Origin: an uncultured Bacilli bacterium
Lineage (GTDB): Bacteria; Bacillota_I; Bacilli_A; RFN20; CAG-449
DNA length: 47,277 nucleotides
Assembly: GCA_947629415.1 (NCBI GenBank)
Contig: CANRDP010000010.1
Location: 1 to 47,277, forward strand
Direction of reading: 5' to 3'
Under the pieces are notes generated by a model that worked only from the letters and a program-made list of their open reading frames with translations, was not told where the DNA came from and did no database searches. This document shows positions 2,046 through 29,267 of this stretch, piece after piece; position 1 is the first letter of the stretch, and each line of letters opens with the position of its first letter. The position numbers were made by a program, and so were the translations under genes.

Positions 2046-3503
2046 ATGAAAACCAAATCGTTAAAGCTAAATATGATTTTAAACGCAATTAATGGAGCGT
2101 TAAATGTCTTATTTCCATTAATTACTTTTCCGTTTATTTCCAACATATTTGGAGTTGATCTATTAGGAAAATATCAGTTTAGTTCTTCCTTTATTTCCTA
2201 TTTTCTTCTAATAGCCTCATTAGGTATTTCTACATATGCCATACGTGAAGGTGCCCGAATTCGCGACAATAAGGATCAGTTTAGTAAATTTGCCAATCAA
2301 ATGTTTACTATTAATATGGGGGCTACATTATTATCTTATTGTCTTTTAGCAATTTGTATGGTTGCTATACCTAAATTATATTCTTATACCGGAATTCTTT
2401 TGATTTTATCTATCAATATTTTACTGCAAACAATTGGAGTAGAATGGTTATATTCAATTTATGAAGATTATTTTTATATCACAATTCGAGGCATCGTTTT
2501 CCATATTTTATCTTTAGTTGCATTATTTGTTTTTGTGCGCACTCCTAATGACATTTATATTTATTCTATTATAAGTGTGGTAGCTTCAGGTGGAAGATAT
2601 TTATTAAACTTTTTTAGAGCTAGAAAATATTGCAAATTAAGATTTACAAAAGATTTAAATATAAAAGAACATTGGAAACCTATCATGCTTCTTTTTGGAA
2701 TGCAAATTGCTACGACGATCTTTGTTAGTTCTGACACAACCATTCTTGGATTTATGGTAAATGATTATGTTGTGGGAATATATTCAACATCGACAAAAAT
2801 TTATTCTGCTGTCAAAACAGTGTTATCGGCAATTTTAGTGGCATCTATACCAAGATTATCCGCAACATTAGCAAATGACAATTCTCGTTTTAATGATACT
2901 TTAACCGATATTTATAAAACTTTATTAACTTTCTTAATACCCGCAATTGTAGGTATTATTTTCATGCGAAATGAAATTGTTTTATTAATTTCTAATGTAG
3001 ATTATATAGAAGCAACGGAATCTTTATTCATTTTAAGCATTGCCCTATTTTTTTGCTTGGGTGCCTGGTTTTGGGGACAATGTGTTCTTGTACCAATGAG
3101 AAAAGAATCCTTTGTATTTAAAGTAACATTAATTTCTGCGGTTATTAATATAGTGTTAAATTTAATACTCATCCCATTTTGGAAAGAAAAAGCTGCAGCA
3201 TTAACTACGGTAATTTCCGAAGCAGTTGCTTTCTTTATGCAATGGTATGAAGGTAGAAAATATGCTAAAACATTTGGCATTATAAAAATAACAATCAAGA
3301 TTATTGCTGGATGTCTAGGAATTTGTCTAACGTGTTTATTAATTCAAAAATATATTAATCATTTTTATCTAAAAACTATCTTATGCTGTCTTATTTCTAT
3401 AGTTGTTTATATGCTTATTGAGTTCATTTTGAAAAATTCGGTTTTATATGATATTGTAAAAAAGATAAGGAGAAGACGGAATGGAAAAGCAACTGATGTA
3501 TAA
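2046..3503 (+). CDS. wzx: Wzx-type oligosaccharide flippase
   Basis: Polytopic membrane protein of the polysaccharide transporter/MOP superfamily (485 aa, about 12-14 hydrophobic segments). It should flip undecaprenyl-linked repeat units to the outer face of the membrane before Wzy polymerisation. The N-terminal region (NGALNVLFPLITFPFISNIF) and the conserved central SSDTTILGFM region are typical of Wzx proteins in Firmicutes capsule loci. A basic tail RRRRNGK ends the protein. The 3' end overlaps the next gene by 23 bases, so the two are co-transcribed. The ribosome-binding site is weak (AAGAAATAAAG). Its promoter and structured leader lie immediately upstream. It is the only flippase in the window, so it probably serves the whole locus although it lies far from wzy. 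Confidence 0.9.
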   Translation: MKTKSLKLNMILNAINGALNVLFPLITFPFISNIFGVDLLGKYQFSSSFISYFLLIASLGISTYAIREGARIRDNKDQFSKFANQMFTINMGATLLSYCLLAICMVAIPKLYSYTGILLILSINILLQTIGVEWLYSIYEDYFYITIRGIVFHILSLVALFVFVRTPNDIYIYSIISVVASGGRYLLNFFRARKYCKLRFTKDLNIKEHWKPIMLLFGMQIATTIFVSSDTTILGFMVNDYVVGIYSTSTKIYSAVKTVLSAILVASIPRLSATLANDNSRFNDTLTDIYKTLLTFLIPAIVGIIFMRNEIVLLISNVDYIEATESLFILSIALFFCLGAWFWGQCVLVPMRKESFVFKVTLISAVINIVLNLILIPFWKEKAAALTTVISEAVAFFMQWYEGRKYAKTFGIIKITIKIIAGCLGICLTCLLIQKYINHFYLKTILCCLISIVVYMLIEFILKNSVLYDIVKKIRRRRNGKATDV

Positions 3504-12488: not shown

Positions 12489-13946
12489 TTAATAACTTTT
12501 TAACCTTTCTCGGTCCATAGCTCCCCAAAAGTAATTGGGCAAGTATTTACTTGCATAAACTTCTTCCGGTAAGTAAAACGAACAATTATCCGCACCATCC
12601 AATACATCTTTTGCCGGGTGATAAGAATCTGGATCATATGATGTGATATAGATACCTTCCAGCGAATAACAACCGCGAAATGCTCCCGTTTCGACAGTAT
12701 TTACATTTACACCGAAAGTTATTTTTTTGATATTCGTATTGCCGGCAAAAACATTAGCACCAATCTCTGTCACAGGAATCCCGGCTATCATATCCGGTAT
12801 TTCTATTTCAGAAAGAGCAGCACCATTCGTTGTGAGACCATCTATTCTCCATACTCTTTTTCCGTTGTAGGCTGAATGTAGCGTCAGATTGAATAGTTCT
12901 GCCGCTTTCGCAAATTCGGCCGAGACTCCACTTTCACCATCGGGATTGTTAGGAATAAGAGGCATATTGGGAATTTCAATCGTAACTGGTGTAAAATCTT
13001 CGGTTGCCGCCTTTATATCAAGTGCAAGTCGTCGTGTATAATATATTGCACCGCTGGCGTTTAAATGAAAATTGCTATCATAAAACCATCCGCTTTCCAT
13101 GATGCGACTTTCCGGATTTCCTAAAACATCAAAATCAAGTTTTTCGCGTAAATAATTATAATAGTCTGTTATCTTTTCTTTTGTTGTTCCGCTTTCAAGT
13201 GCTGAACCATTCATGGGGCAAAATGAAAAGAATACTGTTGCTCCGCGATCTTGCAGTTTTTTTGCATAAGTATTTATATAATCTATAAAATCATCATCAA
13301 TTACATCGTGTGAAAAGGAAATCGGTGTAGAAACATCATATCCTTCAGACATTTCGTTATATTCTCTTTTATCATAGCAAATGTCGCCAAAGGAGTTGAA
13401 AGAATGTACATTATATACGCCATCAGGTTGTGGTTTTACGCCTGAAGAAAATGCTTTGAATTTTCCACTGACAAAAGGTAAAAAACCCGAGACTAAATTT
13501 TCAATATTATCAAACGGAATTTTACTGAGTACATCAAAATTTCCGTCTGCAGAATACCAAACGGCTTCGCCATTAAAATAATTTGAAAGAGATTGGTTAT
13601 TTTGTTCGGGTGCAATAATGACAATGTCCCCTTCATGAATTGCATCCTCTGCTGTATCGAGCATGTATTTTGTGCCTAGATTGGCATACAAACCATAATT
13701 TACAACAGAATAGCCTAGTTCCTTCTCTAAAAGGTCACTTCTTAAACCGAAAGCCGTACTTGATCCGCCTATCATGACTGCCTTTTTGCCACGGATGCCA
13801 TAAAGTCTGTCATATTTTATTTTCATTCCACCATAAAACGACTGATCATATTGTGATGGTACAGCAAATGCAACTGCTATAAGCGTAAACGGCACCGATA
13901 TCAGTGCAAATAATATAATGATAATGGATAATATTTTTTTCTTCAT
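12489..13946 (-). CDS. SGNH-type acyl-transfer protein with C-terminal LRR_5 domain
   Basis: A 485-residue protein with an N-terminal membrane anchor (about residues 4-30), so the rest should be extracellular. The SGNH hydrolase-like domain starts with GGSS (60-63, nucleophile Ser) and closes with DSNFHLN. Partners of MBOAT proteins (AlgJ, PatB, DltD types) carry this domain to complete O-acyl transfer to polysaccharide. From about 380 to 450 there are BspA-type leucine-rich repeats (IPVTEIGANVF, then VNTVETGAFRGC). Nine bases separate it from the MBOAT gene. The domain order (SGNH then LRR) is the reverse of the other SGNH protein in the module. The GC content looks higher than in flanking genes, suggesting separate acquisition. 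Confidence 0.78.
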   Translation of the reverse strand: MKKKILSIIIILFALISVPFTLIAVAFAVPSQYDQSFYGGMKIKYDRLYGIRGKKAVMIGGSSTAFGLRSDLLEKELGYSVVNYGLYANLGTKYMLDTAEDAIHEGDIVIIAPEQNNQSLSNYFNGEAVWYSADGNFDVLSKIPFDNIENLVSGFLPFVSGKFKAFSSGVKPQPDGVYNVHSFNSFGDICYDKREYNEMSEGYDVSTPISFSHDVIDDDFIDYINTYAKKLQDRGATVFFSFCPMNGSALESGTTKEKITDYYNYLREKLDFDVLGNPESRIMESGWFYDSNFHLNASGAIYYTRRLALDIKAATEDFTPVTIEIPNMPLIPNNPDGESGVSAEFAKAAELFNLTLHSAYNGKRVWRIDGLTTNGAALSEIEIPDMIAGIPVTEIGANVFAGNTNIKKITFGVNVNTVETGAFRGCYSLEGIYITSYDPDSYHPAKDVLDGADNCSFYLPEEVYASKYLPNYFWGAMDRERLKSY

Positions 13947-13955
13947 AATGTTTAC

Positions 13956-15425
13956 CTAAAATTGAAAATAAATGAAGGAGCTTTCCTCTCCCGAGACGGC
14001 AAGTGCAATCCATGCAACCGTAATAGCTGCCAAGAAAAAGAGATAAGTAGCTTTGCGTCGTGTACTCGTCGCAGTATTGTTATCGGAAGATGGTTCATAA
14101 TGTATGATTTTTGCCAAAAGTGCAAGTACAAAACACGATAAAGCAATACGAATAACACCCATCATATTAAGACCCATTGCAGAAAGAGCTGCTCGGGTTT
14201 GTGACCAATCCGTAAATATTTTTGTTATTATCGTTCCACAGTCGGCAAGTGTATTTCCACGGAAAAAGATCCAAGCAAAACAGACAAGTGCAAATGTCAC
14301 GGTTCGTCTAAAAAAAGTCAAAGCAACATTATCTTCGGGTAACTTAAAAGAATATTTTGTGGCAAGTTTATTTAAGGCAATCCCCTTCAACTTGCCTATA
14401 ATTTGATATATTCCATGGATGGCTCCCCAAACGACAAAAGTCAAAGCTGCGCCATGCCACAATCCGCTCAACAAAAACACAATCATAACGTTCATTGCCC
14501 AACGCCATATTTTGCATCTATTACCACCGAGAGGGATATATACATAGTCTGTAAACCAACTTGTAAGGGAAATGTGCCATCTTCGCCAGAAATCTTTTAT
14601 ACTAACGGCAAGATATGGTTCATTGAAATTATCTCTCAATTTGATTCCCATCGTTCGAGCAGTTCCAATAGCAATGTCAGTATAACCCGAAAAATCACAA
14701 TAAATTTGTATAGCAAATAAAACTGTAGCAAGAATTGCCGTTACACCATTTGCAGTCTCAAGATTATTATAGACAGCGTTCACATAGCAAGCCACGCCGT
14801 CAGCAATTACCACTTTTTTGAAAAAACCAACCACCATAATTCTGAGCCCTGTACAGAAGTCGTCCATGTTGAACGTTCTTTCTGCTTTCAATTGAGGCAG
14901 AAGATTGTCTGGTCTTTCTATAGGCCCCGCCACTAGTTGTGGAAAATAGACGACAAATAGTGCGTAATAACCAAGATGTTTTTCCGCTTTAATTCTTCCT
15001 CTATATACATCAATCACATATGAAAGTGTTTGAAAGGTATAAAAGGAAATACCTACTGGTAAAAGAAGGCTGAAGGTAAACTGTGGAAGACCGGCATTGA
15101 ATAAATTAAAGAAATCAATTGTAAGATTAACTGCAAATGTAAAATATTTGAAGAAAAACAGAGTGCCGAGACAACAAACGAGAGTAAGAACCAGTAGAGT
15201 CTTTTTAATGTTTTTCCGCTCTCCGTATTTTTCCATGAATAGTCCCGAAAAATAAGATACTAATGTAGTAAATAAAATTAGAAAAATGAGCCAAGCATTC
15301 CAGCTCATGTAGAAAAGATAACTTGCAATAAGCAACATTATCCAACGAAATTTGGAGGGAAGCACCCAATATAATAGCAATACGATAGGTAGAAATATAA
15401 GGAATGTAACTGAGTTGAAATTCAT
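13956..15425 (-). CDS. MBOAT-family polysaccharide O-acyltransferase (AlgI/DltB/PatA type)
   Basis: Multispanning membrane acyltransferase (489 aa, about 10-12 hydrophobic segments). It carries the MBOAT hallmarks: DFWRRWHISLTSWFTDYVYIPLGG around the middle, and SGLWHGAALTFVVWG containing the invariant catalytic His. It should pass acyl groups, usually acetyl from cytoplasmic acetyl-CoA, across the membrane to the SGNH partner proteins, which place them on the capsule. It overlaps the upstream small membrane protein by ATGA, so it is translationally coupled. There is no dltA/dltC nearby, so D-alanylation is unlikely and polysaccharide O-acetylation is favoured. Confidence 0.93.
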   Translation of the reverse strand: MNFNSVTFLIFLPIVLLLYWVLPSKFRWIMLLIASYLFYMSWNAWLIFLILFTTLVSYFSGLFMEKYGERKNIKKTLLVLTLVCCLGTLFFFKYFTFAVNLTIDFFNLFNAGLPQFTFSLLLPVGISFYTFQTLSYVIDVYRGRIKAEKHLGYYALFVVYFPQLVAGPIERPDNLLPQLKAERTFNMDDFCTGLRIMVVGFFKKVVIADGVACYVNAVYNNLETANGVTAILATVLFAIQIYCDFSGYTDIAIGTARTMGIKLRDNFNEPYLAVSIKDFWRRWHISLTSWFTDYVYIPLGGNRCKIWRWAMNVMIVFLLSGLWHGAALTFVVWGAIHGIYQIIGKLKGIALNKLATKYSFKLPEDNVALTFFRRTVTFALVCFAWIFFRGNTLADCGTIITKIFTDWSQTRAALSAMGLNMMGVIRIALSCFVLALLAKIIHYEPSSDNNTATSTRRKATYLFFLAAITVAWIALAVSGEESSFIYFQF

Positions 15426-15868
15426 TGTTCTTCCTCCCTTTTACTATTTGAATCTTGCGGTATAGTCGAAATTATTGTTGTTTCAAGCTCATTTTCTACT
15501 TCCTTTTTGTAATTTTGAATTGCGGTTTCGTCTTTACTTAAAAGCTTGGCTTTATGTGTGAAATTATCAGCGTAACTACTATCATGAGATTCTTGTTCGT
15601 CTCTTTTCTTATGGTTTTCATTTTCGTTATGTGGTAGAAATGTTAGTGCCGAAAATGCGGCTAAGACCAAAATAAAAATTAACACCTCATAAAGATTGGC
15701 ACCAAGAAGCAGAGCATATGTAATACAAAATATTGCTAACACTGCTCCACATATAGAAACCATTGCGGAAACAATTTTATGTGGCACAAAATAAGCCGTG
15801 ATTGTGCAGAAAAGCGCAATCAGTCCAACAAAGAACAATAATGAATTTGTAAAAAATACACTTCCCAT
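15422..15868 (-). CDS. Small membrane protein of the O-acylation operon
   Basis: A 148-residue protein with about three hydrophobic segments in the first 80 residues, followed by a charged, Glu/Lys-rich tail (about 82-148) likely to be cytoplasmic. I do not recognise a family. It lies 2 bases after the lipoprotein gene and overlaps the MBOAT start by 4 bases, so it is surely expressed with the acylation machinery. It could be a partner or scaffold of the MBOAT protein. Confidence 0.65.
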   Translation of the reverse strand: MGSVFFTNSLLFFVGLIALFCTITAYFVPHKIVSAMVSICGAVLAIFCITYALLLGANLYEVLIFILVLAAFSALTFLPHNENENHKKRDEQESHDSSYADNFTHKAKLLSKDETAIQNYKKEVENELETTIISTIPQDSNSKREEEQ

Positions 15869-15870
15869 AA

Positions 15871-17732
15871 TTAATTCAACTCTTCAAGATAAGGTTTTAT
15901 TGCCTCTAATACTTTACTCGTATGCCCAATGCGCTGTGTGCGACCAAGGTGATAATCGCTATTACAAAACATTTCACTAGGATAAACTGAATCAAGTTGA
16001 GAAAGTAATACAGTAACGGGATAGGCTTGCAAGACTCTTTTAACATACTCGGTATAGCGAGTACAAGCTTCTTCCAATTCACTTTCTGAAGAATAGGTTT
16101 GTAATAGTTTAGATTGGTTCATTGTTGGAAAAGCAAAAAATGCCTTAATTCCTTTTTTAGCAAGAGGCTCGTATATTTTTTCTCCTGCTAAATAACATAT
16201 AGAATCTTCCTCATCTGCCCATTCAAGATTAAAATTGTTATCAGAATTCCAACTATAATCTTTAAAACCACTACACTCTCCAACGGCTACTGTTCCGTAA
16301 TCGTTTAAATAATCATTGTAATCACTATAACTTTTTTTCTGACCTTGTGAAAGGGCATCGTATTTATTTACAGTAAAATCATGATAAGTATCTATAAATG
16401 AGCAGTAATCGTTGATTTTTAAATATTTTAACAATGACCAATCACTTTCAAACATATAAAAAAGAATTTGCATGTAAAGTTTATCAATAAAAATAGCTTC
16501 ACATTCGGTTAAAGCAGAAGTTCCTATTAGTGCAGAAATTGATCCCCAATTTCTTTCAGGTGCATGTAAATAAAGGTCATCGTTACCAAGGAAATTAATC
16601 ATTAAATCTTTCCAGAAAATTGCAGGAATTCCTGCCATTAGGCCAAAATTAAACATTTTATAATCACTAAAAATTTCATTTCCAGTATCGGTATCAAAGC
16701 CATACATGACATTTGATCCTCCTGTAACAACAAGTTTCTTGCCTTGATACATTGAAAGACGATTTAATATATCGGCCTTTTTTGCTGCATCTTGATTCAT
16801 ATACACAGGATCCAAAATTGCATTAACGTGTAAAGTAGTAAAGTTTTTACAACCGCAAAAACTCATATCACTTATTTCAGCTATATTATCTGACATATAA
16901 AAATCTGTCAAAGTTTTACAGTTTTTAAAGGCTTCATTTTCTATCGTCGTCACTGTGGATGGAATATAAAAGCTCTTTGCCTTACAATTTTCAAATGCAT
17001 TGGCACATATCGTAGTGATGTCGTTGCCATTTATTCTACGCGGAATCACAACTTCCTCTTCAGTGCCTATATAATCGATTATTTTATCATCTTGTGCAAT
17101 GAATAAAGAAGTATCGGAATAATCTTTCCACACAGCCGAAAGAAATACCGATCCTTCACTTGAAACTTCAACTCTACTGCCAAGACCAATATATTCTCCG
17201 TCTTCGGTTTCCCAACCCACAAGCATTTTATCTGTTTCATCTAAAATATAACCGCGCTCTCTTAAATTTCGTTCCGTGAACGTGTTTGCTTTTGGATGAT
17301 GTTCGATTAATTCCGTACAATCTTGATAGATTGGATCGCTGTCTCCTAGATAATAATATATTGAATACATATAATCAGGTGCTTCTGTTGTATTGAGTTG
17401 AACCACACAACTATATTCAATATTTTTAAATTTTACTTCGTTTAATGAACGTGACTTAGGAATTATTTCACACTTGTCGCCGAATGATCCAGACACGATA
17501 AAACCATCATCTACAGTCACGTTAAAAGTAACCTCAAGATCGTTGTATGAATTGATTATTACCTTATTATCACCAATTACGTGATAATGCTCACCATTCA
17601 TGAGCGTGACCGTAATATTAGATTTTGTATTTATAACCCCCCCCGTTTATTTGATTCACATGCGGAAACAAAAATCATGCATAGTGCAACATACGGAATA
17701 AATAAAGGTTTTAAATTTTTCAATAATTTCAT
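15871..17732 (-). CDS. Phase-variable LRR_5-SGNH lipoprotein, currently frameshifted
   Basis: The main frame starts visibly at 17601 (576 aa) but has no ribosome-binding site or signal peptide there. Upstream, an ATG at 17732 preceded by AAAGGA encodes a lipoprotein signal peptide starting MKLLKNLK, with lipobox VSAC (Cys25). After codon 30 it runs into a G8 tract and stops (TTA TAA). Adding one G (or removing two) joins the frames into a 620-residue lipoprotein. Downstream domains, in ORF-17601 numbering: an InlB-type repeat near 115-160, BspA-like leucine-rich repeats at ~186-260, and an SGNH domain from ~285 with GGSN at the start and NSDYHLG at the end. It is the first gene of the O-acylation operon. 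As assembled, the gene is in the OFF state. Confidence 0.85.
17637..17644 (-). repeat. Poly-G8 contingency tract inside the lipoprotein gene
   Basis: Eight C on the plus strand, read as eight G in the minus-strand gene, directly after the codons for SNK of the mature lipoprotein N-terminus. With eight G the signal-peptide frame ends at TAA; with nine it continues into the LRR-SGNH frame. Long G runs are very rare in such AT-rich DNA and are prone to slipped-strand mispairing. Confidence 0.9.
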
Positions 17733-17954
17733 AATGTGCTTTTCCTTTGACACTTTCATTTACATTTGATGTTTATTCTGTTTCCAAAAAAATGCAAAAA
17801 TAAAGGGAGTCCAATCATAGAACATCTATTTTGAGTATCCCATAATAGGCATGTCGAAGTCATTTTATCGCAGTTATAAAGAATTTGCAAACGCTTTATC
17901 GCGAAATTAGTAATTACGTTAGTTATAGTTAAAATTTTCACTTTTCTCTCCCTT

Positions 17955-18245: not shown

Positions 18246-18307
18246 AACAATTAATTTAATTGTTAACAAAGTTTCTTTGTAAACACAGATTTTTTGATGT
18301 TTACAAA
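18246..18307 (-). repeat. Overlapping hairpins at the end of glf
   Basis: On the minus strand three elements follow each other. TTTGTAAAC, which includes the glf stop, can pair with GTTTACAAA (18276-18284 with 18299-18307). The same middle arm can instead pair with CTTTGTTAAC (18262-18271), with one mismatch. Then comes a perfect 9-bp palindrome, AACAATTAA-T-TTAATTGTT (18246-18264). There is no clear T-run. It may be a weak terminator or RNA end-protector. Confidence 0.45.
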
Positions 18308-19401
18308 TTAAACATTTTCAAGAATTCAAAAGCATCCATGATAATATCATCCATATCATAATATTTATATCTACCTAATCGTCCCCCAAAATAGACATTG
18401 GTTTGTTTTGCTAATTCCTTATATTTCTTATATAAAGCGTTATTCTTTTCATCACAAATTGGATAATATGGTTCATCTCCTTTTTTCCATGTTCCAGAAT
18501 ATTCCTTAGATATCACTGTTTTGGGACTTTCTGTATCAAATTCAAAATGCTTGTGTTCAATAATTCTAGTAAATGGTACTTCATATTCCGTATAATTCAC
18601 TACTGCATTTCCTTGATAATTAGATTTTTCTAATATTTCTGTTTCAAAGCGAATAGTTCGATATTCTAAAGATCCATAACAATAATCAAAGAATGTATCA
18701 ATTTGCCCTGTAAATATTACATCCTTTGCATCTTTTAATAATTCTTCTTTATGTTCAAAAAAATCACAATTTAATTGAACTTTAGAATCCTTTAACATCT
18801 TTTCGATAATTTGGGTATAACCTCCAATGGGAATACCTTGATATCTATCATTAAAGTAATTATTGTTAAAAGTAAACCTTACAGGAAGTCTTTTGATGAT
18901 AAAACTAGGTAATTCAGCGCAAGGCCTTCCCCATTGTTTAGCAGTATATCCCTTCACTAATTTTTCATAAATAGTGTGTCCCACTAAACTAATAGCTTGC
19001 TCTTCTAAGTTCTTTGGCACTTGAATGTTATAGTCCTTCTTTTCTTTTTCAATGCGCGCTTGAGCTTCTTCTGGAGTGAATACATCTTTCCATAACTTAG
19101 TGAAAGTATTCATATTAAAAGGAAGGTTATAACATTCATTTTTATATCGAGCGATAGGTTGATTAATGTAGTTATTAAATGTAGCAAATTGATTAATGTA
19201 ATCCCATACCCACTTTTCATTTGTATGGAAAATATGAGCACCATATTGATGAACATTAATACCCTCAATGTTTTTTGTATAAATATTACCTGCAATATGA
19301 TTTCTTTTATCAATTACTAAGCAAGATTTCCCTTTTTTAGTTAATTCTGAGGCACATATGGCCCCAAATAAGCCTGCACCGACAATTAAATAGTCATACA
19401 T
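18301..19401 (-). CDS. glf: UDP-galactopyranose mutase
   Basis: A flavoenzyme that converts UDP-galactopyranose to UDP-galactofuranose, so the polysaccharide probably contains galactofuranose. 366 aa, the normal length. The N-terminal FAD-binding site is DYLIVGAGLFGA. It is followed by RNHIAGNIYT, HIFHTN (substrate and FAD contacts), the central KQWGRP, and the C-terminal GRLGRYKYYDMDD. AAAGGAGATTAAAAG precedes the ATG. A 235-bp gap with no intact gene separates it from wzy upstream, and hairpins follow its stop. It is close to a DUF4422 glycosyltransferase, a family frequently found with glf. Confidence 0.96.
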   Translation of the reverse strand: MYDYLIVGAGLFGAICASELTKKGKSCLVIDKRNHIAGNIYTKNIEGINVHQYGAHIFHTNEKWVWDYINQFATFNNYINQPIARYKNECYNLPFNMNTFTKLWKDVFTPEEAQARIEKEKKDYNIQVPKNLEEQAISLVGHTIYEKLVKGYTAKQWGRPCAELPSFIIKRLPVRFTFNNNYFNDRYQGIPIGGYTQIIEKMLKDSKVQLNCDFFEHKEELLKDAKDVIFTGQIDTFFDYCYGSLEYRTIRFETEILEKSNYQGNAVVNYTEYEVPFTRIIEHKHFEFDTESPKTVISKEYSGTWKKGDEPYYPICDEKNNALYKKYKELAKQTNVYFGGRLGRYKYYDMDDIIMDAFEFLKMFNL

Positions 19402-25882: not shown

Positions 25883-26677
25883 TCAGTGTGCTTCGTCTGA
25901 TTTAAACAAAACTCCAAAAGTCTTAAAAATAAGTTTTAAATCAAACCAAATACTGCGATATTCAAAATACTCTAATTCCATTCTTTGCCGTTCAGTAGAT
26001 TGATAAGTAACTTGACTTCTTCCATGTGTTTGCCAATACCCAGTTAAACCAGGTCGTGCACATAAAAGAATTTTTTGTTCTTCTTCGGAATAATATTTTT
26101 TTAATTCATTTTCGCTTATCGGTCGCGGACCAACAAAAGACATACTGCCGAATAAAATATTGAATAATTGAGGCAATTCATCGATTGAAGTTTTTCGTAA
26201 AATATGTCCTATTTTTGTGATACGAGGATCATGCTCTAATTTTCTTTCTTCAAGCCAAATATTATATTCTTCTTCCGTAAGATAATCTTTGATTCTCTTT
26301 TCAGCATCTTTATACATTGTTCGAAATTTATATGCTTTGATGGTTTTTCCATTTTTACCTACTCTTTTGTCTTTAAATAAAATAGGACCACGCGAAGTAA
26401 TTTTCACAAGAATTCCAGTAATAAGAAGCAATGGTGACAATATAATTATTGCCAGAAAAGAAGCGAAAATATCAAAGGATCTTTTTAAAAATAAGTAAAA
26501 CTTTCCTCCTCGGATTTTCCTTTCTTTTTTTGAATCCACGGATGTACTTAACTTTTCTTTTTCGTCTGAAACATCGGTTACCGATATTTTATCCGTGTTT
26601 TTTGTTTCCTCAGATTTTATAGTTTCTTGTTTCATTATGTTTTCCATGTTACTATCATTTTTTTGAATGTCATCCAT
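25883..26677 (-). CDS. Initiating undecaprenyl-phosphate sugar phosphotransferase
   Basis: Bacterial sugar transferase (264 aa) that starts the repeat unit by moving a sugar-1-phosphate to undecaprenyl phosphate. After a polar, low-complexity N-terminus (about 1-55) comes the re-entrant membrane helix KRSFDIFASFLAIIILSPLL. The catalytic core follows with FKDKRVGKNGK, KFRTM, KIGHILRKTSIDELPQLFN and GSMSFVGPRP, then RPGLTGYWQTHGRS and the C-terminal DLKLIFKTFGVLF. This is the short PglC-like form without the WbaP N-terminal domain. It heads the operon running to wzy. Its promoter and an adjoining G9 tract lie 180-230 bp upstream. Confidence 0.95.
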   Translation of the reverse strand: MDDIQKNDSNMENIMKQETIKSEETKNTDKISVTDVSDEKEKLSTSVDSKKERKIRGGKFYLFLKRSFDIFASFLAIIILSPLLLITGILVKITSRGPILFKDKRVGKNGKTIKAYKFRTMYKDAEKRIKDYLTEEEYNIWLEERKLEHDPRITKIGHILRKTSIDELPQLFNILFGSMSFVGPRPISENELKKYYSEEEQKILLCARPGLTGYWQTHGRSQVTYQSTERQRMELEYFEYRSIWFDLKLIFKTFGVLFKSDEAH

Positions 26678-26899: not shown

Positions 26900-26908
26900 C
26901 CCCCCCCC
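26900..26908 (-). repeat. Poly-G9 tract upstream of the -35
   Basis: Nine C on the plus strand. On the minus strand it is a C-G9 run ending nine bases before TTGTCA, i.e. about positions -46 to -54 of the promoter. Length changes would rotate or shift any activator or UP element placed further upstream. Confidence 0.8.
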
Positions 26909-26978: not shown

Positions 26979-27710
26979 TTAAGATAAGGGAACTGTTTTC
27001 GCGGATTCTTTTATTTTTTGAAGTAAATGATTTGCATTCGTTTCAAATATTCTTCTTGCCGCTGTAACACCGAATTTCTTAGAGACATATGTCAATGCTT
27101 TTTTTAAATTCGGTCCTCGTTTTTCTATGGAATGACAATCACTTGCTATGATATCCACACAATCTTTTGCCATCAATTGATGGGATAATTTTTTCGCTTT
27201 TTTTCCGAAATCACCAAAGAAACTTGAGGCATCCAGTTGAAACAAAATACCTCTGGATTTCAACTCTTCTAATCGCGATATTGTAAAATAATTATATCGC
27301 TCCGGATGTGCCAAAATGGGAATAAATCCATTTGCAAGCAAATCATCCAAAGCATTATCTACATTTTCCAATTCATAATGCAAATTAAATTCCAAAAGAA
27401 TATATCTCGATTGATTTAAAGTAATAAGTTGTTGCTGATGTAAGGCATCAAACAAAATATCCGTATAAAAAATTTCTCCTCCAAGCAAAAATTCAACTTT
27501 TTTTCCTTGAAATTTTTGACAAAAGCAATCAAAAGTTTGTTTTACTTTTTTACAAGTCAAAAAGAAATCTTTGGAATAAAAAATATGTGGTGTTAAAAAA
27601 ATAGTCGTCACACCATCGATAATTTCCAAATCCATCATTTTTGCAGAAAAAGAGAGATTTTTTGCTCCATCATCGATATTCGGAAGGATATGCGTATGAA
27701 AATCAATCAT
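26979..27710 (-). CDS. cpsB: CpsB/YwqE-type PHP phosphotyrosine phosphatase
   Basis: A 243-residue metal-dependent PHP-fold phosphatase that removes phosphate from the tyrosine tail of the CpsD kinase and so controls capsule assembly. Metal-binding motifs are DFHTHILPNIDDG at the start, LLGGEIFY around 94-101, ILAHPERYNY in the middle and ASDCHSIEKRGPNL near the C-terminus. It is the third gene of the cpsC-cpsD-cpsB unit. The intergenic space is 18 bases, and its ribosome-binding site is a run of seven G. Confidence 0.95.
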   Translation of the reverse strand: MIDFHTHILPNIDDGAKNLSFSAKMMDLEIIDGVTTIFLTPHIFYSKDFFLTCKKVKQTFDCFCQKFQGKKVEFLLGGEIFYTDILFDALHQQQLITLNQSRYILLEFNLHYELENVDNALDDLLANGFIPILAHPERYNYFTISRLEELKSRGILFQLDASSFFGDFGKKAKKLSHQLMAKDCVDIIASDCHSIEKRGPNLKKALTYVSKKFGVTAARRIFETNANHLLQKIKESAKTVPLS

Positions 27711-27716
27711 CTTCTT

Positions 27717-27723
27717 CCCCCCC
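27717..27723 (-). repeat. Poly-G7 tract forming the cpsB ribosome-binding site
   Basis: The bases between the cpsD stop and the cpsB ATG read AAAAA-GGGGGGG-AAGAAG on the minus strand. No other Shine-Dalgarno is present, so the G run must serve as one, six bases before ATG. Length changes would alter its pairing and spacing. Confidence 0.7.
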
Positions 27724-27728
27724 TTTTT

Positions 27729-28457
27729 TTAAAGTTTTACTTTTTCATTCTTCTTGTATTTCATCGCTTTTTCTTTATCCGAATAAGCATAATAAGTATC
27801 ATAAGATTTTTTCAAAACATCATGTGTCGCCACAATACCGAGAATTTTTATTTCCGCTTCTTTTAAAATATGAATCGTTTTTTCTAAATCTTTTTTCTTC
27901 GTCATCCCTATGGAAACAACGCAAAGAATACCGTCAATGCAATTTTTCAACAAAAGAGAATCATTGACCATTAAAAGCGGAGGAGTATCCAAAATAATAT
28001 AATCGTATTTTGATCTGCATTTTTTTATTAGTTTTGCAAGAATATTGCTACCGACAATCAATTCAGGAAAAATAGTTTTCTTCCCCGCGGTTAAAATGTC
28101 TAAGGCATGATAATGTTTAAGTATATCCTTAAAAGTAGCCTCATTTGTGCAATAATCCACAATCCCTATCCGATTTTCCAATCCAAAAACACGATGTATA
28201 TTATTGCGATATAAATCCAGATCTATCAATAAAACTTTTTTCCCTTTATATGCCCATATATTTGCCAGATTGCATGCTGTCGTCGTTTTTCCTTCACCGC
28301 AAGAAGGAGAAGTAATGGCAAATACTTTCATTCGTCGATTGATGGAAGATAAGTCAATATTGGTTTGGATTCTTTGATACGCCTGGGCATAAACGGAATC
28401 TAAATTTTCCACTAAAATATCTTTTGGATTTTGTATCCATTTATCTTTCTTTTTCAT
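27729..28457 (-). CDS. cpsD: CpsD/YwqD-type bacterial tyrosine kinase
   Basis: Cytoplasmic BY-kinase, 242 aa. Walker A is SPSCGEGKTTTACN (50s), Walker A' is VLLIDLDLYRNN and Walker B is YDYIILDTPPLL. The C-terminal tail has a tyrosine cluster (SYDTYYAYSDKEK and KYK) that is the autophosphorylation site. It works with CpsC, whose cytoplasmic C-terminus activates it, and is reset by CpsB. It overlaps cpsC by 17 bases. Confidence 0.95.
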   Translation of the reverse strand: MKKKDKWIQNPKDILVENLDSVYAQAYQRIQTNIDLSSINRRMKVFAITSPSCGEGKTTTACNLANIWAYKGKKVLLIDLDLYRNNIHRVFGLENRIGIVDYCTNEATFKDILKHYHALDILTAGKKTIFPELIVGSNILAKLIKKCRSKYDYIILDTPPLLMVNDSLLLKNCIDGILCVVSIGMTKKKDLEKTIHILKEAEIKILGIVATHDVLKKSYDTYYAYSDKEKAMKYKKNEKVKL

Positions 28458-29205
28458 ACTTTTTTTTCCTTATATCAAAAGCAGGAATGACTCCCAAAAC
28501 TTTCAGATCCACAATTTTTTCTATTTCCTCGCTTTTATAAATTACCGAATGAAGAAATTCTTTTGTAACCGAAAGCAAAATACCGATAGATAAACCAAGA
28601 ATCGCGGCGATAAGAATATATCCCATCCTTCCGTTAGAAATTTCATAATACTCCGTCGCAGAAGAAGATCTTTTGACAATACCGGATAAAAATTCATATT
28701 CCGTGCTATCCACGGAAGTGATTCTTACCAAAATCGATTCCATCATTATTTGTGCAAATTCGCCGTTTGTATCCGTATAATAAAGTTGCAAAACCAAAGA
28801 ATTCGCCGAATTTTCCACAGTTAGTTTTTCTTTATATGTATTCAACAAATCAAAAAATTCTTTTTGCTCTTTTAATTCTTGAATGTAACTATCCGTATAA
28901 ACATTCTGATGAATTAATTCCTCTACGACACCTTCCAAAAACCGATCTTCATAAAAATAATCTCGTATCGTGGCAACATATTTTAAACCATCCATAATAA
29001 TATCTTCGCTGGTCTCTTTCTGAAGCATTCGTTCGCTCGTATCGATAATAACCGAACCGCGAGATTGATACTGTGGCTTTAATCCAAAAAAAACAAATCC
29101 TGCACCTAGAAAAGTGGCAATGAAAGTTGAAATTAAAATCAAAAAAACATTTTTTTTAAGAATCCAAACAATATCTGAAAGAGCAATTCCTTCCTTTTCT
29201 TCCAT
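28441..29205 (-). CDS. cpsC: CpsC/Wzd-type chain-length regulator and kinase activator
   Basis: Wzz-family membrane protein (254 aa). A first transmembrane helix lies at about 18-40 (FLILISTFIATFLGAGFVFF), followed by an extracellular Wzz domain and a second helix at about 203-223 (MGYILIAAILGLSIGILLSV). A short cytoplasmic tail ends in a Lys-rich segment that should bind and activate CpsD. The ribosome-binding site is AGGAGA. It is the first gene of the regulatory operon, with a poly-G promoter tract 50 bases upstream. Confidence 0.93.
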   Translation of the reverse strand: MEEKEGIALSDIVWILKKNVFLILISTFIATFLGAGFVFFGLKPQYQSRGSVIIDTSERMLQKETSEDIIMDGLKYVATIRDYFYEDRFLEGVVEELIHQNVYTDSYIQELKEQKEFFDLLNTYKEKLTVENSANSLVLQLYYTDTNGEFAQIMMESILVRITSVDSTEYEFLSGIVKRSSSATEYYEISNGRMGYILIAAILGLSIGILLSVTKEFLHSVIYKSEEIEKIVDLKVLGVIPAFDIRKKKYEKER

Positions 29206-29235: not shown

Positions 29236-29267
29236 ATTTAAGCAAAAATTTACCCCCCCCCCGTCAA
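29236..29267 (-). promoter_or_regulatory. Candidate cpsC promoter with poly-G spacer
   Basis: On the minus strand TTGACG (29262-29267) is a near-consensus -35. The spacer starts with the G run. TTAAAT (29236-29241) is the best -10-like hexamer at 20 bp; shortening the run by three G would give 17 bp. The -10 is weak, so the -35 plus tract is the firm part. Confidence 0.55.
29253..29262 (-). repeat. Poly-G10 tract in the cpsC promoter
   Basis: Ten C on the plus strand, ten G on the coding strand, immediately after TTGAC. It is not in a reading frame: stops flank it closely in all frames. It is the longest G run in the window and lies where spacer-length phase variation is known in Neisseria porA. 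Confidence 0.85.

Follow-up and report, generated by a model that had tools for sequence, protein, structure and literature searches.

A poly-G tract and the probable phase variation of an LRR-SGNH lipoprotein in the polysaccharide region of an uncultured Bacilli bacterium

In Campylobacter, Neisseria and Helicobacter, the length of poly-G tracts sets the reading frame of surface genes (PMC2823697, PMC4965091). In Bifidobacterium breve, a gut commensal, G-tract control of sortase pili has been proven at read level (PMC9187656). At Neisseria porA, a poly-G tract lies between the −35 and −10 boxes, and transcriptional switching is listed among known modes (PMC4235727). On the enzymatic side, an acyl-shuttle hexapeptide, FXYXXF, is known from MBOAT-SGNH systems (PMC12148441). 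Here we analyse a G8 tract that interrupts a gene for an LRR-SGNH lipoprotein in a 47,277-nucleotide stretch of an uncultured Bacilli bacterium (contig CANRDP010000010.1; hereafter, the window). Judging from sister loci and precedent, we estimate at roughly 80% the probability that this tract is a simple-sequence contingency locus, at which slippage makes the lipoprotein phase-variable.

The tract separates two frames on the minus strand. The upstream frame (17631–17732, 33 codons, MKLLKNLKPLFIPYVALCMIFVSACESNKRGGL) opens at ATG 17732, 10 nt behind a ribosome-binding site AAAGGA (17743–17748), and encodes a lipoprotein signal peptide with the lipobox VSAC at residues 22–25 (Cys25). At precursor codon 30 it enters eight G on the coding strand (17637–17644), bordered by AAAC in 5′ and TTATAA in 3′. 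Direct reading of the sequence shows that it ends two codons past the tract, at the TAA in 17633–17631, where the preliminary description had it stop at once. The downstream frame (15871–17636, 587 codons) is open from 17634 to 15874 and encodes a BspA-type LRR region followed by a DltD-like SGNH domain. This frame has no start signal of its own: the ORF caller places its start at 17601, the first ATG, which is devoid of a ribosome-binding site. Predicted sites for an own promoter of this ORF were not above chance, and an Rfam search returned tRNA only and no leader RNA. Register between the two frames requires a G count divisible by three; the assembled tract has eight. One additional G thus fuses the signal to the LRR-SGNH frame, in agreement with the earlier claim. 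The 620 residues first assigned to the mature protein are those of the precursor; the mature lipoprotein, counted from Cys25, would have about 596.

Such a run is out of proportion to the composition of the window, where G8 matches occur 6 times against 0.27 expected, a number reached in 0 of 100 shuffles. Runs of three G number 258 and runs of five number 7; there is no run of six, and lengths 7, 8, 9 and 10 are represented once each.

Homologs of the LRR-SGNH protein were found in two families of the same order (f4 and f5), with 22–27% overall identity. Six loci (L151, L154, L156, L163, L165 and L169) have an in-frame lipoprotein signal at the start and are free of G-runs of six or longer, both within the frame and close to it; a further homolog, L155, also has an N-terminal lipobox. 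The best homolog, L151, aligns from the lipobox side across ATG 17601 (ITVTLMNGEHYHV / IDVVLVSGEHYQV). Because this alignment extends over ATG 17601 back towards the tract, the true start of LRR-SGNH should be located upstream, at the signal peptide. In addition, since the homologs combine an in-frame lipobox with the lack of a tract, the G8 is, on this comparison, a gain in the present lineage at the point where the signal meets the mature protein. Closer counterparts were also sought. A search of 40 relatives for full-length orthologs gave, outside the genome itself, LRR matches only, and a scan of named genomes gave three distant LRR matches. The other two genomes of the genus yielded no close ortholog.

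The assignment of the C-terminal part to the SGNH fold relies on structure prediction and residue conservation. The AlphaFold model (pLDDT 77) has DltD as its best PDB match (E 5e-5), with GDSL lipases weaker and BspA-type LRR proteins matching too; whole-chain TM-scores to DltD are low (0.24–0.35). Among 18 homologs, the candidate active-site residues Ser296, part of a GGS/GDS-like block, and His551 are found in 15 and 18, respectively, and Asp549 and His551 are invariant in 7. Ser296, Asp549 and His551 would therefore fit an SGNH active site. At the profile level, the curated SGNH profile gave no match, Pfam identified LRR only, and NCBIfam gave only a weak LRR-adhesin match.

The LRR-SGNH gene is the first of four that follow each other on the minus strand with gaps near nil. 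A gene for a 148-residue membrane protein of no confident family (15422–15868) lies directly after its stop codon, followed by an MBOAT acyltransferase (13956–15425; PF03062, E 1e-24) and by a second SGNH protein (12489–13946), which is membrane-anchored, carries a C-terminal LRR and is a paralog of the probably switched one. The MBOAT C-terminus reads FIYFQF, and fits the FXYXXF shuttle motif. Similar arrangements occur elsewhere in the order: L151 directly precedes an MBOAT gene whose product is 51% identical to that of the window, and L153, L163 and L169 adjoin a homolog of the second SGNH. The SGNH-MBOAT partnership proposed in the preliminary description thus draws support from the fold, the order of the operon and the synteny seen in other families; synteny and the motif also make a role of the operon in O-acylation plausible. 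D-alanylation by the Dlt pathway was considered and set aside. Profile scores for DltB (157 bits, cut-off 375) and DltA (98.6 bits, cut-off 560) remain below their cut-offs in a genome that is about 91% complete, so that O-acylation with acyl-CoA as the source is the likelier of the two chemistries. As a UDP-galactopyranose mutase gene (18301–19401, minus strand) and a capsule-type cluster lie upstream of the operon, the acyl groups probably go to a surface polysaccharide. More specifically, the acceptor may be the capsule, and the outcome may be adhesion.

Three other long G-runs of the window, all on the minus strand, are found in the same polysaccharide region. Upstream of a Wzz-like gene (28441–29205), a G10 tract (29253–29262) starts within a −35-like box, TTGAC(G). 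This tract is a candidate phase-variable promoter and probably acts as a transcriptional switch of the capsule operon. A G9 tract (26900–26908) precedes a sugar transferase gene (25883–26677); a promoter-like site, TTGTCA-17-TATAAT, follows 9 nt downstream of the tract, which, unlike the other promoter tracts, is outside the spacer. Finally, a G7 run (27717–27723) occupies the ribosome-binding region of a CpsB/CapC phosphatase gene (26979–27710) and might affect its translation.

We then placed the tract in its genomic context, using pattern searches and fetched stretches for all tract statistics. The 1.19 Mb genome contains 11 G-runs of at least eight, three of them within the window. Hence, the single tract of the preliminary description is one among 11 genome-wide, three of which are inside the polysaccharide region. 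Four of the 11 are positioned between good −35 and −10 boxes, namely TTGACA-N9-G10-TATAAT (L046), TTGTCA-N9-G10-TATAAT (L048), TTGACA-N9-G9-TATAAT (L049) and TTGACT-N9-G9-TAATAT (L045). Five are in genes (two on, three off), and the two at 26900 and 29253 are those upstream of capsule genes. Run lengths are bimodal across the genus: its three genomes have 38 runs of six, 5 of seven and 40 of eight or longer.

Across 17 genomes (this one and 16 related), 121 tracts were collected. In the G orientation, 64 of the 121 scored as promoter spacers, compared with 9 of the 121 in the opposite orientation and 5.8% of random positions. The spacers of promoter-like tracts are mostly 17–20 nt long, 18 and 19 being the commonest. 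Of 196 genomes of the order, 48 contain the pattern TTGAC-N6..11-G8 and two (G041 and G187) the reversed pattern. In a sample of the phylum, the former was found in 13 of 40 same-order genomes versus 15 of 255 others.

About 30 of the tracts in the 17 genomes are coding, some 19 in frame and some 11 out of frame; the off ones leave 165–999 codons open downstream. The genes concerned encode LRR surface proteins, lipoproteins, a GDSL lipoprotein, a GH3 protein, a glycosyltransferase, an acyltransferase, and PglX and type III methyltransferases. The commonest in-frame length in the genus is nine. A second SGNH/GDSL lipoprotein of the same genome (L042, 2909–4003) carries a G9 tract, in the on state, at the same place behind the lipobox region. 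In another locus (L102, around position 3002), a type III DNA methyltransferase gene contains an in-frame G9, and a phase-variable methylome is possible there. Two contigs (G002:C8 at L073 and G010:C15 at L104) end exactly within a poly-G tract, which could result from mixed tract lengths in the reads or from sequencing trouble.

The most surprising part of the analysis is a flank signature common to the long tracts. In the genus, 34 of 39 are preceded by AC and 35 of 40 are followed by T. The 5′ AC is found in promoter tracts (17/18) as well as in the others, mostly located in genes (17/21), and in more than one reading frame. The corresponding values for ordinary G3–G5 runs are 4–6% for AC and 16–29% for T, and a C precedes only 7 of the 38 G6 runs. 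Genus g16 of family f8 has TC rather than AC on the 5′ side. These shared flanks suggest a constraint at the DNA level on where long tracts arise or persist, and are a lead on the origin of such tracts. A further step would be that a sequence-directed mechanism makes or maintains the long tracts of the genus, which would then not be ordinary slippage products. The occurrence of AC-Gn-T in promoter and gene tracts, in several frames, together with the scarcity of lengths 6 and 7, is the basis for this idea, which we regard as unlikely.

Sister loci were compared in their on and off states. A pglX-like gene present in three genomes of two families has G11 (off) in L052, G12 (on) in L100 and G11 (off) in L119; PglX, a BREX-type methyltransferase, is probably phase-variable on this comparison. 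Two species have GH3 proteins of 98.4% identity; the gene is on, with G9, in the first and off, with G8, in the second. The pair shows a dN of 0.007 and a dS of 0.113 (dN/dS 0.06), which indicates that the off copy has not decayed. The tract difference amounts to two bases, one G and the next T, and the change is therefore tract-associated rather than a pure slip of one G. Another pair, L044 (G8) and L083 (G10), was dropped as evidence of selection: signal peptide and linker are the same and the remainder is 25% identical.

The genome of the window encodes a full-length MutS1. Loss of MutS was thus ruled out as a cause of instability in this genome, and the switch is not explained by a mismatch-repair defect; MutS1 would restrain slippage relative to MutS-less species. 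In a genome without full-length MutS1 (G027, L144–L146), the tracts, three only, are G12, G13 and G16, versus mostly G8–G10 in MutS1-bearing relatives.

Slipped-strand phase variation, as put forward in the preliminary description, is strongly supported by comparison, namely by the many like tracts, the on and off lengths of sister loci and the purifying selection acting on one copy that is off. Three other explanations were weighed. A fixed pseudogene, in which a one-off frameshift was followed by decay, would account for the off state in the sole assembly, and the genus offers no ortholog for comparison. Against this, the frame stays open for 587 codons past the tract, the catalytic residues are conserved, and signal peptide and ribosome-binding site are intact. 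Furthermore, other lipoproteins have tracts of at least eight at the same position, and some of these are on. We hold this explanation to be the least probable of the three. A stable tract could also yield a fixed, low level of full-length protein, through transcriptional slippage or programmed ribosomal frameshifting. RNA polymerase slippage can indeed be provoked by 8–9 identical bases. Such a mechanism leaves unexplained both the tracts located between −35 and −10 boxes (64/121 versus 9/121 in the opposite orientation) and the length differences between close relatives, and appears very unlikely, if slightly less so than a pseudogene.

The remaining explanation is an error of one G in the assembly or sequencing of this single MAG, with a tract that is in reality in frame in every cell and a gene that is always on. 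G homopolymers are error-prone, Illumina trouble at G-tracts has been described (PMC9187656), and nine is the commonest in-frame length in the genus. Even then, the tract would be long and slippage-prone in a tract-rich genome, and about 11 of 30 coding tracts are off. An error is unlikely, although it ranks ahead of the two explanations above.

According to the preferred reading, phase variation by slippage, slipped-strand mispairing would alter the number of G and thereby decide whether the LRR-SGNH lipoprotein is translated. As assembled, the gene would yield the signal peptide, with translation ending just past the tract and the protein off. In the on state, the lipoprotein may take acyl groups from the MBOAT of the same operon through an acyl-Tyr shuttle at FIYFQF, and the putative active site formed by Ser296, Asp549 and His551 would then place them on the surface polysaccharide. 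As the genes are packed end to end, the off state may in addition have a polar effect that lowers expression of the MBOAT and SGNH genes further down the operon.

A literature search for RF39 together with phase variation found nothing. The mechanism of the switch is known, the locus and the lineage are apparently new. Equally new, it appears, is that this order employs poly-G tracts in two architectures and within one polysaccharide region. Overall, the data indicate random surface switching in an uncultured, small-genome order on the Bacilli side, affecting lipoproteins, capsule genes, acylation and DNA methyltransferases, on a scale described so far mainly in pathogens, e.g. Neisseria and Campylobacter.

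Compared with the poly-G loci of Campylobacter, Neisseria and Helicobacter, the present locus shares a tract within the range of about 8–12 G in a surface gene, a frame set by tract length and an intact downstream part. The target classes are also common to both: surface proteins, glycosyltransferases and DNA methyltransferases. Unlike those loci, it belongs to an uncultured AT-rich lineage that has MutS1, its tract is located right behind the lipobox, and long tracts of the genus have AC-Gn-T flanks. The pili of B. breve (PMC9187656) provide a close parallel, with a G-tract inside the gene that opens an operon, a reference sequence that is out of frame and a downstream ORF without its own start. 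Here, however, the product is an acyl-transfer lipoprotein and switching is deduced from comparison, whereas read-level proof exists in B. breve. The likeness to Neisseria porA concerns many of the sister tracts, of the form TTGACA-N9-G(8-11)-TATAAT with spacers mostly of 17–20 nt, rather than the LRR-SGNH G8, and dozens of such tracts occur in this order. Finally, as in PatA/PatB, AlgI/AlgJ and DltB/DltD (PMC12148441), an MBOAT with FXYXXF and an SGNH protein are encoded in one operon, and the SGNH model is nearest to DltD. In contrast to these systems, the SGNH domain is fused to a BspA-type LRR region and lipid-anchored, and two SGNH proteins accompany one MBOAT, one of them probably switched by poly-G.
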